NCBI GenBank assembly: GCA_031127225.1
Contig: JARIEV010000003.1
Coordinates: forward strand, 1-64,000
Length of the DNA: 64,000 nucleotides
Direction: 5' to 3'
DNA from: Gemmatimonadota bacterium
GTDB taxonomy: Bacteria > Gemmatimonadota > Gemmatimonadetes > Gemmatimonadales > Gemmatimonadaceae
The notes under the pieces are model-generated. The model did not search any database. It saw only the letters and a list, made by a program, of their open reading frames with translations, and had not been told where the DNA came from. Of the stretch, positions 18,865-25,286 are shown piece by piece. How positions within the stretch are numbered: position 1 is the stretch's first letter; the number at the start of each line of letters is the position of its first letter. The position numbers were made by a program, and so were the translations under genes.

Positions 18865-18898
18865 AACCGCCGGATCCATGCTCATGGGTCCGGCGGTT
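18865..18898 (+). terminator. Intrinsic terminator-like hairpin after tRNA-Gly
   Basis: AACCGCCGGATCCAT-GCTC-ATGGGTCCGGCGGTT followed by TGTCGTTT; 15-bp stem with one G-U. Confidence 0.75.
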
Positions 18899-19042
18899 TG
18901 TCGTTTCGGCCATGTGCCGAGTTGGACAGAGACTTGCGGGAGTGATGTCGTGCGGCGCTCCAGTTGTGGGAGCGAGGCGCCCCGTGCGCCGATCAATGCC
19001 CGCGCCTGTCCCTGCCCATTCTCAGTGCTCCTGAGTCATACC

Positions 19043-19519
19043 ATGGCGACACCAATCCTTCCTCCTCCAATGCGCGACAGCGACGTGCTCCGTGCGGCAC
19101 TTCCCGGGCTGCTCTTCGCCCTCGTGACGCTGTTGTTCGGCTACGCGATGGGCGTCGTGTTCGGTTTGAACGAAGACCTCATCAAGTCCCGTCTCGCCGA
19201 CTCCGCCGATGCCGTCAGCGCCACCGTCTGCCACGGCGATGCCGCCGCCATGAAGGCGGTGCTGGGTAAGTCGTGGACCTACATGCAAAGCGCGCATCCA
19301 CACGCCGGTGGAGTCGGGTCGGCGGCGATGGGCGTGATACTCCTTATCGTGATGCGCGGCGTCAGCGCGATGTGGACGCGCCTCATCAGCCTCAGCCTGG
19401 GTGCCGGCGCCTTTGGCTATTCCCTGTTCTGGCTGTGGGCCGGATTTCGCGCACCCGCGCTCGGCGGCACCGATGCCGCCAAGGAATCCTTGGTGTGGCT
19501 CGCCATCCCATCGAGTTGA
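19043..19519 (+). CDS. Hypothetical membrane protein
   Basis: MATPILPPPMRDSDVLRAALPGLLFALVTLLFGYAMGVVFGL; about three TM segments. Confidence 0.55.
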   Translation: MATPILPPPMRDSDVLRAALPGLLFALVTLLFGYAMGVVFGLNEDLIKSRLADSADAVSATVCHGDAAAMKAVLGKSWTYMQSAHPHAGGVGSAAMGVILLIVMRGVSAMWTRLISLSLGAGAFGYSLFWLWAGFRAPALGGTDAAKESLVWLAIPSS

Positions 19520-19722
19520 GCCGTCGTGGTCGCGACCGCCGCGGCGGCCGTACTGGTCGTGATGACGCTCGCGCGACACAAGGCGCCGTGATCTGATTGA
19601 TACTAACAGACCGACCGTCATGCGTTTGATACACTGAAGAGACTGTTCGGTTGGTTAGAAGTTGCGAGCGGGGGGCAGCGTTGTCGGGGGCAAAACTTCC
19701 TACCCTCCACCAACACCTCCGC

Positions 19723-22605
19723 ATGTCATTCACGGCAGTATTCTCGAAAGCGTCTCGCCTGTTCGCCGGCGTGATCGCGATAGCACTCACGACGACCGCC
19801 CCGCTGTTGTCGGCGCAGGCGCCGACGGGCACCGTGACTGGGCGTGTCACCGGTCCCGATGGTAACATCATCACCGACGCCGTGGTGTCGGTGCTGGAAA
19901 CGTCGCTGACCGCGGCGACCGATCGCGCCGGCATCTTCCGCCTGGCGAAAGTTCCCGTCGGTGCGCAGCGGATAACGGTACGTGCGTTGGGTAAGCGTCC
20001 GAGCACCCAGACGGCAACCGTCACCGCCAATGGAACGGTTTCCCTCGCCATCGCCCTCGAACTGGCGACAACGACGCTCGAAGGTATTACCGTCACCGGC
20101 GAGCGCGGCGGACAGCTGCGCTCGGCGGATCAGAAGCGCCGCAGCGTGACGGTCAGCGACGTCGTGTCGGCCGACGAAATCGGTCTATTGCCCGACCAGA
20201 ACGTGGCTGAGGCCGTGCAGCGCGTACCGGGCGTATACATCGAAACCACGCGCGGCGAAGGCCGGACCGTGTCCATCCGCGGCGTGGCGCCCAACTTGAA
20301 CAACGTCACGTTGAACGGCCAGCCGCTGGCGTCGACCTCGACGGATCGCGCGTCCGCGCTCGATCTGCTGCCGGCGTCGATGGTCGCGAATATTGAAGTC
20401 ATCAAGGCCGTCACACCCGATATGGACGCCAACACCATCGGCGGCACGGTCAACCTCCGTACCCTGACCGCGTTCGACCGCCCGCGTCCGTTCTTCTTCG
20501 GTATTTTTGAAGGGCTACAAAACAATCGGCAGGTGCCGTTCGGCGAGACCGTGCCGCAGTACGAGCTCGACATGACGACGGGACGTCGATTCGGCGCGAA
20601 TCAGACGCTGGGTGTGGTGATCTCCGGCAGTGCATCGCAGCGCGATAACGCCGTGTCGGTGCTCGATCCCGACGGCTGGATCCGCGCGCTCAATCGCACG
20701 ACCGGCGACTCGATCACGGTCTCCAACGAAATCGAGCAGCAGCTGGCGGACAACGATCGCACGCGGTACGGCCTGACGACGTCGCTCGACTGGCGCCCGC
20801 GACCGACTACCAGCCTCTTTCTGCGTGGCCTCTACACACGCACGACTGAAATTGAGCGGAACTCGGAATTCGAGATCACCTTCACGGGAGCATATGAATT
20901 CCCGGCGGGTTCCAAGGTGGGGCGCAATACGGCCAGCTCGATGGAATTGGATATCAGTCGCGACGAAGAGACAGAGAACCTTTATACACTGAGCACCGGT
21001 GGCAGTCAGCAGTGGGGCAACTTCCACATGGACGTGACGGGCGTGGCCACGCGTGGTCAGGCCAAGAGCTTCGGTCCGGATGCCACGTTTGAAAACCCTG
21101 TGGCCACCAACGTGCTGGCGCCGGTGGGTCTTGACTTCTCCAAGTATTTCTACTCAGTGACTCCGCTCAATCGGGCGTTCGTGGAAAACCCGGCCAGCTA
21201 CAACCTGAACGGCCTGAGCTACAACTACCGCGACGTGGTGGAGAACACCTACATTGGCGCGGCTGATTTCAAGTATGACACGAAGCTGGGCCGATTCCCG
21301 GCCATCCTCAAGTTTGGCACCAAGATCCAGGCGCGTGACAAAGACATCGACGACGCCTCGGATCGCTATGCTAATACCGCGCTGACATTGCTGCCGTGGT
21401 CGCAGGCGGTCACCGGCCGTTTGCAGGACGGCGCCTCGACGTTTGTGCAGGGCAACGTCGACCCGTTCAATGCCTTCGTCGACCGGATGCGTGTGCGCCC
21501 CGACTCAGTCACGCTGGACCCGATCAACACGCAGGTACAGAAGATCGACGGCGACGCATTCGTGAAGGAGCGTATCACCGCGGCCTATCTTATGGGCACG
21601 GCCGATATCGGCCGTTTGACGGCACTGGTGGGAGCCCGTATGGAGCGTACGGATTCGGATGCCGAGTTCTGGGAGCTCGGTGAGAATTCGCGGCTGCCTT
21701 CCGCTCAGCGTTACGTGTTTCCGACGGCGCGCACCACGCGGTCCAATTCGTACACCAACGTGTTGCCCTCGGCCGTTTTTAAGTTCGACGCCGGTAAGTC
21801 ATTGGTGTTGCGCGCCGCGTACACCAGCACAATTGCCCGTCCGCAGTTCACGCAGCTGGCCAGCTACACCCGCGCCAACTACATCCCGGACGCCGCGGTA
21901 CCGGGTGCCTTCGACGGTACGCTGACGGACAACAACCCGGACCTCAAGCCGTATACTTCGCGAAATTACGATGCGTCGGCCGAGTACTACCCATCCACCG
22001 GTGGCCAGATCTCGCTGGGCTACTTTCAAAAGGTGATCGACAACCCGATTTACACCTACCGTTCGGACGAACGGAACGTGAACTATGATGGACTGCAATT
22101 CACGCGCCTTCGGTACACTCAGCAGCGGAATGGCGATGCCGGCAGCTTGGGTGGAGTGGAAATGTCATGGAATCAGCCGCTCTACTTTCTGCCGGGTGTG
22201 CTCAAGGGGTTGGGCGTGACGACGAACCTTGCGTTCATCACTTCGGAGCTGACCATCGTGGGCCGTAACGAGAAACTCCCGTTCCTCGGCCAGCCGGACC
22301 AGGTGATCAACCTCATTCCGTACTTTCAGTACAAGTCGTTCGAGGCGCGGTTTGCGTATGCGCGTCGCAGTGGCTATCTGTCTCAGGTCAGCGCGATCGA
22401 AGGCTTTGATCGGTTCGCCTCGGCGCGTGAAACGATGGATCTCACGCTGCGATACCAGATCCTGGGACCGAAGCTCGAAGTGATCGGGACGGCACGCAAC
22501 CTGACAAATTCCCCCGAGGTGGGGTACCAGGGGAACGTAAACCAGTACGACGTGCATACGCTGACCGGCCGTACGTTCTCCATCGGCTTCCGGACCACGC
22601 GCTGA
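19723..22605 (+). CDS. TonB-dependent receptor with carboxypeptidase-like regulatory N-terminal domain
   Basis: Signal peptide ...TAPLLSAQA; GTVTGRVTGPDGNIITDAVVSVLET; plug NVAEAVQRVPGVYIETTRGEGRTVSIRGVAPNLNNVTLNGQPL; beta-barrel C-terminus. Confidence 0.93.
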   Translation: MSFTAVFSKASRLFAGVIAIALTTTAPLLSAQAPTGTVTGRVTGPDGNIITDAVVSVLETSLTAATDRAGIFRLAKVPVGAQRITVRALGKRPSTQTATVTANGTVSLAIALELATTTLEGITVTGERGGQLRSADQKRRSVTVSDVVSADEIGLLPDQNVAEAVQRVPGVYIETTRGEGRTVSIRGVAPNLNNVTLNGQPLASTSTDRASALDLLPASMVANIEVIKAVTPDMDANTIGGTVNLRTLTAFDRPRPFFFGIFEGLQNNRQVPFGETVPQYELDMTTGRRFGANQTLGVVISGSASQRDNAVSVLDPDGWIRALNRTTGDSITVSNEIEQQLADNDRTRYGLTTSLDWRPRPTTSLFLRGLYTRTTEIERNSEFEITFTGAYEFPAGSKVGRNTASSMELDISRDEETENLYTLSTGGSQQWGNFHMDVTGVATRGQAKSFGPDATFENPVATNVLAPVGLDFSKYFYSVTPLNRAFVENPASYNLNGLSYNYRDVVENTYIGAADFKYDTKLGRFPAILKFGTKIQARDKDIDDASDRYANTALTLLPWSQAVTGRLQDGASTFVQGNVDPFNAFVDRMRVRPDSVTLDPINTQVQKIDGDAFVKERITAAYLMGTADIGRLTALVGARMERTDSDAEFWELGENSRLPSAQRYVFPTARTTRSNSYTNVLPSAVFKFDAGKSLVLRAAYTSTIARPQFTQLASYTRANYIPDAAVPGAFDGTLTDNNPDLKPYTSRNYDASAEYYPSTGGQISLGYFQKVIDNPIYTYRSDERNVNYDGLQFTRLRYTQQRNGDAGSLGGVEMSWNQPLYFLPGVLKGLGVTTNLAFITSELTIVGRNEKLPFLGQPDQVINLIPYFQYKSFEARFAYARRSGYLSQVSAIEGFDRFASARETMDLTLRYQILGPKLEVIGTARNLTNSPEVGYQGNVNQYDVHTLTGRTFSIGFRTTR

Positions 22606-25286
22606 TGTTCGTGCCTACAATGGTGAGGCTGGCTGCGCGCATGACCGCGCGTGGCCTTGGGCTGGTGTTGGCGTTGACCATGGCGTGGCCGACCGCTCGC
22701 GTGCTGGCCGCCACGCATCCCGTCGAGCCGGCGGCAATCTTCGTGACCTGGGACGGTGATCCCACGACCACGGTCAGCATCGATTGGCACTTCGAGCCCG
22801 GCGCTGACTTCCCCTCGGTCGAGGTGCGTGCGCGCGGCACCACGAGCTGGGCGTCGCATCGCGGCATCAGCTTTCCGTTTCCTCATTCCGCGCGCATGGT
22901 GCGTCGGGCGAAGGTCAGTGGATTACAGCCGGGGGCGGAGTACGAGCTGCGCATCGGCGGATCCCGCGTCTACCGCTACCGCACGATGCCGGCTACGCTC
23001 ACGCGGGCGATCCGCTTTGCCACGGGTGGGGATACACAGTCCGGTGATGCGACGTTCGGCGCGACCAATCGCATGGTGGCGGCCCGCGATGTCGACTTTG
23101 TGCTCCTCGGCGGCGATCTCGCCTACTCCAATGGCGACCCGCGTCTCGTGAAGCGGGAAGAGCAGTGGTTCGAAACTGTCGCCAAGACTCTGGTGACGAA
23201 AGACGGCCGACTGATCCCGGTGATCGCGGCCATTGGCAATCATGAAGTGTTCTCCGCCCGTGACACCACAGTTGCCTTTCAGCAGATGATGCAGAAGACG
23301 GGTGTCACGTATGGTGAGGCGACCTACTACCAGCGGTTGCACGCGCACGCGCGCGACCGGCAGTACGGTATTATCGACGTGGGCAACTATCTCTCGCTCG
23401 TGTTGCTCAACACCGGACACACCGCCGAGATCGGTGGGGAGCAGACCGAGTGGCTGCGCGGCGAGCTCGCCAAGCGTACATCGGTGCCACATGTGTTCCC
23501 GGTGTACCATGTGCCGGGCTACCCGTCGGTACGCAGTTTTGACGGTGCCAACAGTGCGCAGGTGCGCGCGCATTGGGCACCATTGTTCGAGCTGGCGGGT
23601 GTCCGCGTGGCGTTTGAGAATCACGATCATGCCTACAAGCGCACGCCGCCGATTCGGGCCGGCCAGCGTGACACGTCCGGCGTGGTGTACGTCGGCGATG
23701 GCGCCTGGGGGGCCGGACCGCGACCGATCGCCCGGGACCACAAGCAGCCGGTGTGGTATCTGGAAAAGACGTCATCGGTCAATCACGCCATCATCGTGAC
23801 CGTAGCTCAGGGCAGCGCGCGACTGGAGGTGATGGACTCGGCGGGCGCGATGGTTGACAGTCTCCGCGTGCTCCGTCGTGCCGTTGGGATGCGTCGCACT
23901 GCCGCGGGCGCCAGCGCGGCAGACACGTCGCGACGCTGGCTCGCGGGTGATCATCATATCCACAGCGAGTTCAGCGCGGACTATCCCGAGCCTCCCGCCG
24001 GCAGCACGGAAGCGCCGAAGCCGGTGTTGGGTGCCGACGGTCGGTATCCCATCTCGCAGAACGCGACGATGGCCCGCACGTTCGGTTTGCAGTGGATGGT
24101 GTCGACCGATCATGGCGGTCCGAATCATTCCAAGCTGAATCACGATCAGGCCTACCCGAAGCTTCTGCAGTCACGGCAGGACGTGCCGCAAGTGATGCAG
24201 TTCTATGGCATGGAGTTCGACACACCTGGTGCCGATCACAGCAGCATGATCATTCCCAAGTCGGACGCTGAGCGCACGACACTGCGCGATATTGAATCGA
24301 AGTTCGCGAAACGTGACGCATTCCCGCGCGACACCGCGCGCGACTCCGAGCCCAAAATGCTCGAGGCGCTGCGCTTCATGCGCGACGTGTCGACGCCGCC
24401 GGTGGTGATCGCCAATCATCCCTCCCGTTCGGCCGCGGACATCGGCAAGTACGGACTGGACCGACCGGCCGAGCTGCGCGACTGGAATGACGCCGCGCCG
24501 CGCGTGGCGATCGGCATGGAAGGCGCACCCGGCCACCAGGCCAGCGCCATTAACAAGGACGGATCGCTCGATACGGCCGGCGCACGCGGCGGGTATCGAA
24601 ACTCCCCGACGCTCGGTGGCTTCGATCAGATGACAGCACGCGTCGGTGGCTTCTGGGATGCCATGCTCGGAGAAGGTCGCCGGTGGTGGATCACGTCGAC
24701 CTCCGACTCTCATTCGAACTGGCGCGACGGTGGCAGCGACTTCTGGCCGGGGGAGTTCTCAAAGACGTACGTGAGCGCGCGCTCCTCGACCGACGACGTG
24801 CTGGACGGCATCCGCAGTGGGCGCATCTTCGTGACCACCGGCGATCTGATCTCCGAGCTTGATGTCACCGTGAGCGGGGCACGTCAGACGGCCACGATCG
24901 GTGGCGAACTGTCAGTGCCCGCGGGCAGCGACCTCCAAGTCACCATTCGCGTACGCGACCCGAAGGGCGCCAACCATCACGGTGACTCCAACACCGTGAA
25001 GCGCCTCGACTTGATCATGGGCGATGTCACGGGTCCGGTGGCCGACCGGAGCAGTGACCGCAATCCCTCGACCCGCGTGATCAAGCGCTTCGCCGCGACC
25101 GATTGGCGCCGTACCGGCGAGATTCTCACCATGAGCGTCACGCTGCCCAACGTGCGGAGTGCGAGTTACATCCGTGTGCGCGGGACCAGCACGACGGAAC
25201 TCGAGCCGTCCGCCGATCCGCGCGGCGAGGATCCGTGGTCGGACCTCTGGTTCTACGCGAACCCGATCTTTATATCGATTCGCTGA
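22605..25286 (+). CDS. Secreted two-domain hydrolase: purple-acid-phosphatase-like metallophosphoesterase followed by PHP-type domain
   Basis: MPP motifs GGDTQSGD, LLGGDLAY, AIGNHE, FENHDHAYKR; then LAGDHHIHSEFSADYPEP, VSTDHGGPN, VIANHPSR, TSTSDSHSNWRDGG. Confidence 0.85.
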   Translation: MFVPTMVRLAARMTARGLGLVLALTMAWPTARVLAATHPVEPAAIFVTWDGDPTTTVSIDWHFEPGADFPSVEVRARGTTSWASHRGISFPFPHSARMVRRAKVSGLQPGAEYELRIGGSRVYRYRTMPATLTRAIRFATGGDTQSGDATFGATNRMVAARDVDFVLLGGDLAYSNGDPRLVKREEQWFETVAKTLVTKDGRLIPVIAAIGNHEVFSARDTTVAFQQMMQKTGVTYGEATYYQRLHAHARDRQYGIIDVGNYLSLVLLNTGHTAEIGGEQTEWLRGELAKRTSVPHVFPVYHVPGYPSVRSFDGANSAQVRAHWAPLFELAGVRVAFENHDHAYKRTPPIRAGQRDTSGVVYVGDGAWGAGPRPIARDHKQPVWYLEKTSSVNHAIIVTVAQGSARLEVMDSAGAMVDSLRVLRRAVGMRRTAAGASAADTSRRWLAGDHHIHSEFSADYPEPPAGSTEAPKPVLGADGRYPISQNATMARTFGLQWMVSTDHGGPNHSKLNHDQAYPKLLQSRQDVPQVMQFYGMEFDTPGADHSSMIIPKSDAERTTLRDIESKFAKRDAFPRDTARDSEPKMLEALRFMRDVSTPPVVIANHPSRSAADIGKYGLDRPAELRDWNDAAPRVAIGMEGAPGHQASAINKDGSLDTAGARGGYRNSPTLGGFDQMTARVGGFWDAMLGEGRRWWITSTSDSHSNWRDGGSDFWPGEFSKTYVSARSSTDDVLDGIRSGRIFVTTGDLISELDVTVSGARQTATIGGELSVPAGSDLQVTIRVRDPKGANHHGDSNTVKRLDLIMGDVTGPVADRSSDRNPSTRVIKRFAATDWRRTGEILTMSVTLPNVRSASYIRVRGTSTTELEPSADPRGEDPWSDLWFYANPIFISIR

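Follow-up and report, generated by a model that had tools for sequence, protein, structure and literature searches.

In the uptake of xanthosan by Xanthomonas (XanT-XanP), a TonB-dependent transporter shares a transcript with a phosphoesterase, which cleaves the sugar phosphodiester once it has been taken up (PMC12807533), and in the PUS loci of Flavobacterium the outer-membrane TonB-type importer PusCD is clustered with periplasmic phosphomono- and phosphodiesterases (PMC8115612). The PhoB regulon of Caulobacter crescentus includes TonB-dependent receptors (TBDRs), a phytase and phosphatases (PMC11208175). A further group of relevance is the CehA/McbA family (NCBIfam NF038032), whose characterised members cut carbamate esters, including carbamate pesticides (PMC8292978).

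Here we describe a locus in a 64,000-nt stretch of Gemmatimonadota DNA (the window, by which the whole stretch is meant), in which a TBDR gene is directly followed by a gene for a fusion of a purple acid phosphatase (PAP)-like metallophosphoesterase (MPP) half and a PHP-type hydrolase half. Like XanT-XanP, it pairs a TonB-dependent receptor with a predicted phosphoesterase; XanP, however, is a single enzyme with a known substrate and belongs to the 2H phosphoesterases, whereas the domains found in the fusion are PAP-like and CehA/McbA-like, with no 2H phosphoesterase (two HxT/S motifs) among them. With the PUS loci it shares the combination of a TonB-type importer and putative phosphoesterases, and relatives of its MPP half stand behind a SusC/SusD pair in other Gemmatimonadota, but the window receptor is of the TIGR01782 type with the fusion directly after it, and neither SusD nor a SusC/SusD pair is present at the window locus. 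A term search of the PUS paper (PMC8115612) returned no mention of PHP. By analogy, the window module may work like both systems while being a member of neither, since it has no 2H enzyme and no SusD. We know of no MPP fusion in the CehA/McbA family, and searches of the open-access literature turned up no account of PHP paired with either a TBDR or an MPP.

Organisation of the locus

The features of the locus are presented in Table 1. The TBDR, which comprises a CarboxypepD_reg-like N-terminal domain, a plug and a barrel, scored 547.7 bits against TIGR01782 (cut-off 310); an alternative TTG start at 19651 is possible. The last base of its TGA stop codon (22603-22605) is the first base of the ATG of the fusion, as the earlier note had stated, and the resulting TGATG overlap suggests translational coupling of the two genes and fits their placement in one operon. 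Upstream of the TBDR, a 213-aa ORF (18878-19519) matched no Pfam family, and no FecI/FecR pair was seen at the window locus.

The second gene is a single ORF running from its ATG through a signal peptide, the MPP half (aa ~36-425) and the PHP half, which belongs to a CehA/McbA-like superfamily (aa 439-893). Its N-terminus, MTARGLGLVLALTMAWPTARVLAATHP, reads by eye as a signal peptide lacking a lipobox, and the product is probably soluble and either periplasmic or secreted. Thus, the single exported polypeptide described in the earlier note was recovered as an ORF, with the same fusion in a second genome (locus L012) and its export signal recognised by eye. The eight metal-binding motifs named there, assigned to the MPP half (aa 141-148, 169-174, 211-214 and 339-344) and the PHP half (aa 450-457, 500-505, 603-608 and 700-705), are all present and in order, and additional ones are found at aa 301-306, 537 and 644; ordered motif sets of this kind appeared in 0 of 20,000 shuffles of the protein.

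Table 1 Features of the TBDR-fusion locus (positions in the window)
Feature	Position	Strand	Remarks
TonB-dependent receptor (TBDR), TIGR01782 family	19723..22605	+	960 aa from ATG
TGATG overlap, TBDR stop/fusion start	22603..22607	+	identical in L012
Exported MPP-PHP fusion protein	22605..25286	+	893 aa
Predicted signal peptide	22605..22712	+	residues 1 to ~36, recognised by eye; lacks a lipobox Cys
Purple acid phosphatase N-terminal (FN3-like) domain	22728..22967	+	aa 42-121; PF16656 28.1 bits
PAP-like metallophosphoesterase catalytic core	23025..23636	+	Pfam, alignment, profile match to 2qfp
PHP-type hydrolase domain	23919..24854	+	aa 439-750; boundary to C-terminal part approximate
C-terminal beta-sandwich domain of PHP half	24855..25283	+	aa ~751-893

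The PAP-like half

The earlier assignment of the N-terminal half to the metallophosphoesterases held: Metallophos (PF00149) scored 32.2 bits, above its gathering score of 21.5, and alignment together with a profile match to PAP structures placed all seven PAP ligands (D143, D171, Y174, N212, H302, H340 and H342). A profile built from eleven MPP relatives matched red kidney bean PAP (2qfp) with an E-value of 1.9e-24. The PAP N-domain (PF16656) lies just below its gathering score of 30 in the window and above it in relatives encoded by separate genes (30.6 in L016, 44.8 in L122). The likeness to purple acid phosphatases covers the core with its seven ligands, including the GDxxY tyrosine, and, at a score just under the cut-off, the N-domain, at the level of profiles only; the window MPP differs in having NHDH for GHxH and in its fusion to PHP. 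In the full-length structure prediction this half was poorly modelled, for which mixed partial alignment rows are probably to blame, so that its fold is argued from sequence and no inter-domain geometry is claimed. If this half is a true PAP, it would carry an Fe(III)-M(II) centre and act as a phosphatase.

A relative with 68% identity is encoded by a separate gene in the Gemmatimonadaceae MAG Prado131 (L016). Others, with 43-45% identity, occur in three Gemmatimonadota genomes of another family behind an apparent SusC/SusD pair, a call that was checked with SusD and plug models in L122 only; these PUS-like arrangements lie at L122:1231-7278, L123:925-7076 and L121:5664-8676.

The PHP half

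The ligand series H451, H453, D502/H503, E537, H605, H644, D701 and H703 is invariant in 57 aligned sequences. Seven arginines are likewise invariant among the relatives (R86, R170, R223, R254, R299, R419 and R421 in domain numbering) and would suit a polyanionic substrate; in the C-terminal beta-sandwich, R857, R859 and the ELEP...DPWSDLWFY stretch are invariant. No Pfam family matched the PHP half, and a profile search against the sequences of solved structures found no relative. The NF038032 model matches all 57 aligned relatives, and in the window it covers aa 444-890 with 72.1 bits, below the curated cut-off of 80; the half is related to CehA/McbA by this profile, and because the cut-off was missed we do not file it as a member.

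The structure model of this half is confident (pLDDT 96.2). Its top Foldseek matches are beta-sandwich domains, as the C-terminal part dominates the comparison, and below them ranks endonuclease Q (7k30; probability 0.99, E-value 2.3e-3, TM 0.32), a PHP-type enzyme. Because no other Foldseek match supports PHP, the assignment draws chiefly on the conserved ligands and on the CehA/McbA profile. Hence, the PHP reading of the earlier note stands with respect to its ligands and family profile, while the fold itself was confirmed only in part.

With few exceptions the relatives are proteins of about 480-500 aa that stand alone, and the N-termini of nearly all of them look by eye like signal peptides. 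They occur in Gemmatimonadota, Pseudomonadota, Acidobacteriota, Verrucomicrobiota, Planctomycetota, Cyanobacteriota and Bacillota, as well as on Streptomyces and Deinococcus plasmids, and are annotated as "phosphoesterase" or "hypothetical protein". The window genome has a further gene of the CehA/McbA family (G000:C106:15644-16507, L137), which at 105.3 bits passes the curated cut-off.

Authenticity and distribution of the fusion

Is the fused gene real, or could it result from an assembly error or a frameshift? The same fusion, with the same TGATG overlap, is found in a second, 91% identical assembly (G020, L012), and dN/dS between the two is 0.11 for the MPP part, 0.05 for the PHP part and 0.06 for the TBDR. 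The fusion is thus shared and under purifying selection, which speaks against an artefact.

It is also rare. Among the 395 Gemmatimonadota genomes searched, the PHP half is present in 17 and an MPP match (E-value 1e-15) in 11, and the fusion occurs in the window genome and that of L012 only; among the genomes examined, no genus but one has the exact fusion. In the phylogeny, the fused PHP shares a clade with standalone PHPs from its own genus and family (L124, L125 and L126; support 100/97) and lies apart from the PHPs of the separate TBDR-PHP-MPP operons L013, L016, L018 and L026 (support 100/100). Because the PHPs of the fused gene and of the L013, L016 and L018 operons fall into different supported clades, the pairing of MPP and PHP with a TBDR probably arose more than once.

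Linkage with the receptor and gene orders

In Gram-negative bacteria, PHP often directly follows a TBDR gene. Of 82 PHP loci, 24 have a TBDR immediately upstream in the same orientation, compared with 5 of 582 control genes taken from these loci (Fisher p 4e-19). When the loci are clustered at 75% identity, which leaves some shared ancestry, the linkage is seen in 14 of 52 clusters; it spans Gemmatimonadota, Alpha- and Gammaproteobacteria and Acidobacteriota, and extends to annotated Novosphingobium and Pseudoalteromonas plasmids. The coupling to a receptor proposed in the earlier note is therefore conserved well beyond the window genome for the TBDR-PHP pair, but not for the complete TBDR-(MPP-PHP) arrangement, given the two genomes with the fusion. 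On a Novosphingobium plasmid (L142:5566-10386), an IS6-family transposase separates the TBDR and PHP genes and other IS elements flank them, and the pair may thus be movable on mobile DNA.

The order TBDR-[MPP-PHP] is fused in the window and L012. Unfused, the genes are arranged as TBDR-MPP-PHP (L136), TBDR-PHP-MPP (L013, L016, L018 and, partially, L026) or MPP-TBDR-PHP (L031). Two very distant PAP-like MPPs take part in these arrangements: those of L013, L018, L136 and L031 share only 23-24% identity with the MPP of the window, which makes repeated recruitment of a similar enzyme probable. What is conserved is the TBDR-PHP pair, to which MPP is an accessory. Neighbouring genes in the compared loci were identified by mechanical longest-ORF calls and purpose-built profiles, and some may have been missed or miscalled.

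Near many PHP relatives, among them those of Streptomyces, Paenibacillus and several Gemmatimonadota, there is neither a TBDR nor a phosphatase, and several same-strand neighbours looked unrelated (an Mrp-type antiporter, dihydroxy-acid dehydratase and an M24 peptidase). A gene for a HupE/UreJ-type membrane protein lies at or near PHP in Paenibacillus (L032:9426-10505), Deinococcus (L143:9440-10585) and Sporosarcina (L084), directly downstream in the first two, and PhoX and Nramp genes are also near the PHP gene of the Deinococcus plasmid (L143). Gammaproteobacterial loci (L052:3357-4274, L059, L063, L068, L069 and L070) encode a protein of ~305-350 aa two to three genes from PHP, for which the one member scanned gave no Pfam family; a conserved gene for 1074-1088 aa, which by eye only resembles methylmalonyl-CoA mutase, often stands between the two.

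Phosphatase neighbours and PHO-box-like repeats

Beta-propeller phytases (PF02333) adjoin PHP or lie within a few genes of it in nine loci (L019, L025, L028, L033, L040, L042, L055, L057 and L080) from at least four lineages, against ~0.18 expected by chance in 50 genomes (a size-based Poisson estimate); a phytase passed the cut-off in 32 of the 50 PHP-bearing genomes searched. In some loci of Caulobacterales and Sphingomonadales, TBDR, PHP and phytase occur together (L019, L028, L033, L040, L042 and L055), whereas at the window locus a PAP-like MPP takes the place of the phytase. Other neighbours of PHP are a MetallophosN/C phosphatase (five loci) and a tyrosine-phosphatase-like Y_phosphatase3 protein (three loci). 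The phytase of the window genome (G000:C50:2232-3134) is unlinked to the window locus.

High-scoring PHO-box-like direct repeats were found upstream of the first gene of 24 of 80 PHP operons, compared with 20 of 306 controls (p 1e-7), and on the reverse strand in 9 of the 80; averaged over identity clusters, the enrichment is 10/50 versus 20/306 (p 0.004). It is only suggestive of phosphate regulation. The window's own upstream region contains no PHO-box-like site above background.

Proposed role and alternative explanations

On balance, we lean towards the view that the locus is a two-gene, TBDR-coupled module for phosphate-ester scavenging with a bifunctional fused phosphoesterase. The TBDR would carry a phosphate-ester compound across the outer membrane, and the co-translated, exported fusion would hydrolyse it in the periplasm. 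The PAP-like half would be a phosphomono- or diesterase, and the PHP half, as another metal-dependent phosphoesterase, would take off groups beyond the reach of the PAP-like half; phosphate set free in this way would then be imported, perhaps together with the organic core. As substrates, inositol phosphates or other polyanionic phosphate esters are the likeliest class, since PHP relatives adjoin beta-propeller phytases, and inositol phosphates themselves are plausible.

The phosphatase and phytase neighbours and the modest PHO-box enrichment support this role, as do the PHP arginines and ligands, the TBDR linkage, the three unfused arrangements and the SusC/SusD-linked MPPs. Against it count the many PHP relatives that stand without a TBDR or phosphatase, the missing PHO-box-like site and unlinked phytase of the window genome, and the kinship with a family known for hydrolysing carbamate esters. 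The interpretation in the earlier note, in which the enzyme would act sequentially on a phosphoester imported by the TBDR, is partly supported, with both domain assignments, the ligands and the receptor linkage upheld, and the position of the PHP half next to CehA/McbA makes a non-phosphate substrate possible for this half.

The chief rival, which we regard as doubtful, follows from that kinship: the TBDR would import a natural ester other than a phosphate ester, which the PHP half would cleave as a CehA/McbA-like ester or carbamate hydrolase, and the PAP-like half would be an independent phosphatase or would work on a phosphorylated form of this compound. Besides the PHP-type ligands and the profile match over the whole half and throughout the PHP family, it draws on the TonB-dependent receptor upstream of cehA in Sphingomonas sp. 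CDS-1 and on the dependence of CehA/McbA catalysis on histidines of the PHP-like domain (PMC8292978). However, the window scores under the curated cut-off, the invariant arginines favour anionic substrates, and the recurrent neighbours are, as far as examined, phosphatases and phytases and not genes of aromatic degradation.

It is distinctly unlikely that the association arose by chance, that is, that two exported phosphatases were fused without a common substrate behind an unrelated TBDR. The restriction of the exact fusion to two closely related genomes and the frequency of solitary PHP genes would fit such an origin, but TBDR, MPP and PHP cluster repeatedly, in varied orders and with very distant MPPs, and the TGATG overlap is kept in both fusion genomes. 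Very unlikely, finally, is a role in iron or metal acquisition, in which the TBDR would import an iron-organophosphate (e.g., Fe-phytate) or siderophore-like complex and the fusion would release the metal by breaking the ligand. TBDR-PHP is flanked by genes for FecI-type sigma factors and FecR in loci of Caulobacter, Novosphingobium, Pseudoalteromonas and Alteromonas, which could equally point to iron regulation and counts against scavenging, and efeB lies near a Streptomyces homologue. FecI/FecR pairs, however, regulate many TBDRs and none was seen at the window locus, the phosphatase neighbours would be explained only with a phosphate ester as the ligand, and the PHO-box enrichment points to phosphate.

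Implications

Phosphate-ester scavenging thus remains our preferred reading of the locus, and it allows a broader, speculative proposal, which we put forward with low confidence: the exported PHP family may supply the enzyme for a widespread route by which TBDRs take up inositol phosphates or another polyphosphorylated nutrient, fused here to a PAP domain so that one chain completes the degradation. If true, PHP would be a new fold for the breakdown of phytate or inositol phosphates. If the scavenging reading itself is true, it gives a function, organic-phosphate scavenging coupled to outer-membrane import, to a large family that spans phyla and so far carries only the labels "phosphoesterase" and "hypothetical protein". 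The fusion would tie PAP-like and PHP enzymes together as partners in one pathway and add to the few TonB-dependent receptors for which a role with phosphate esters is known, with relevance to phosphorus cycling in soil and water.
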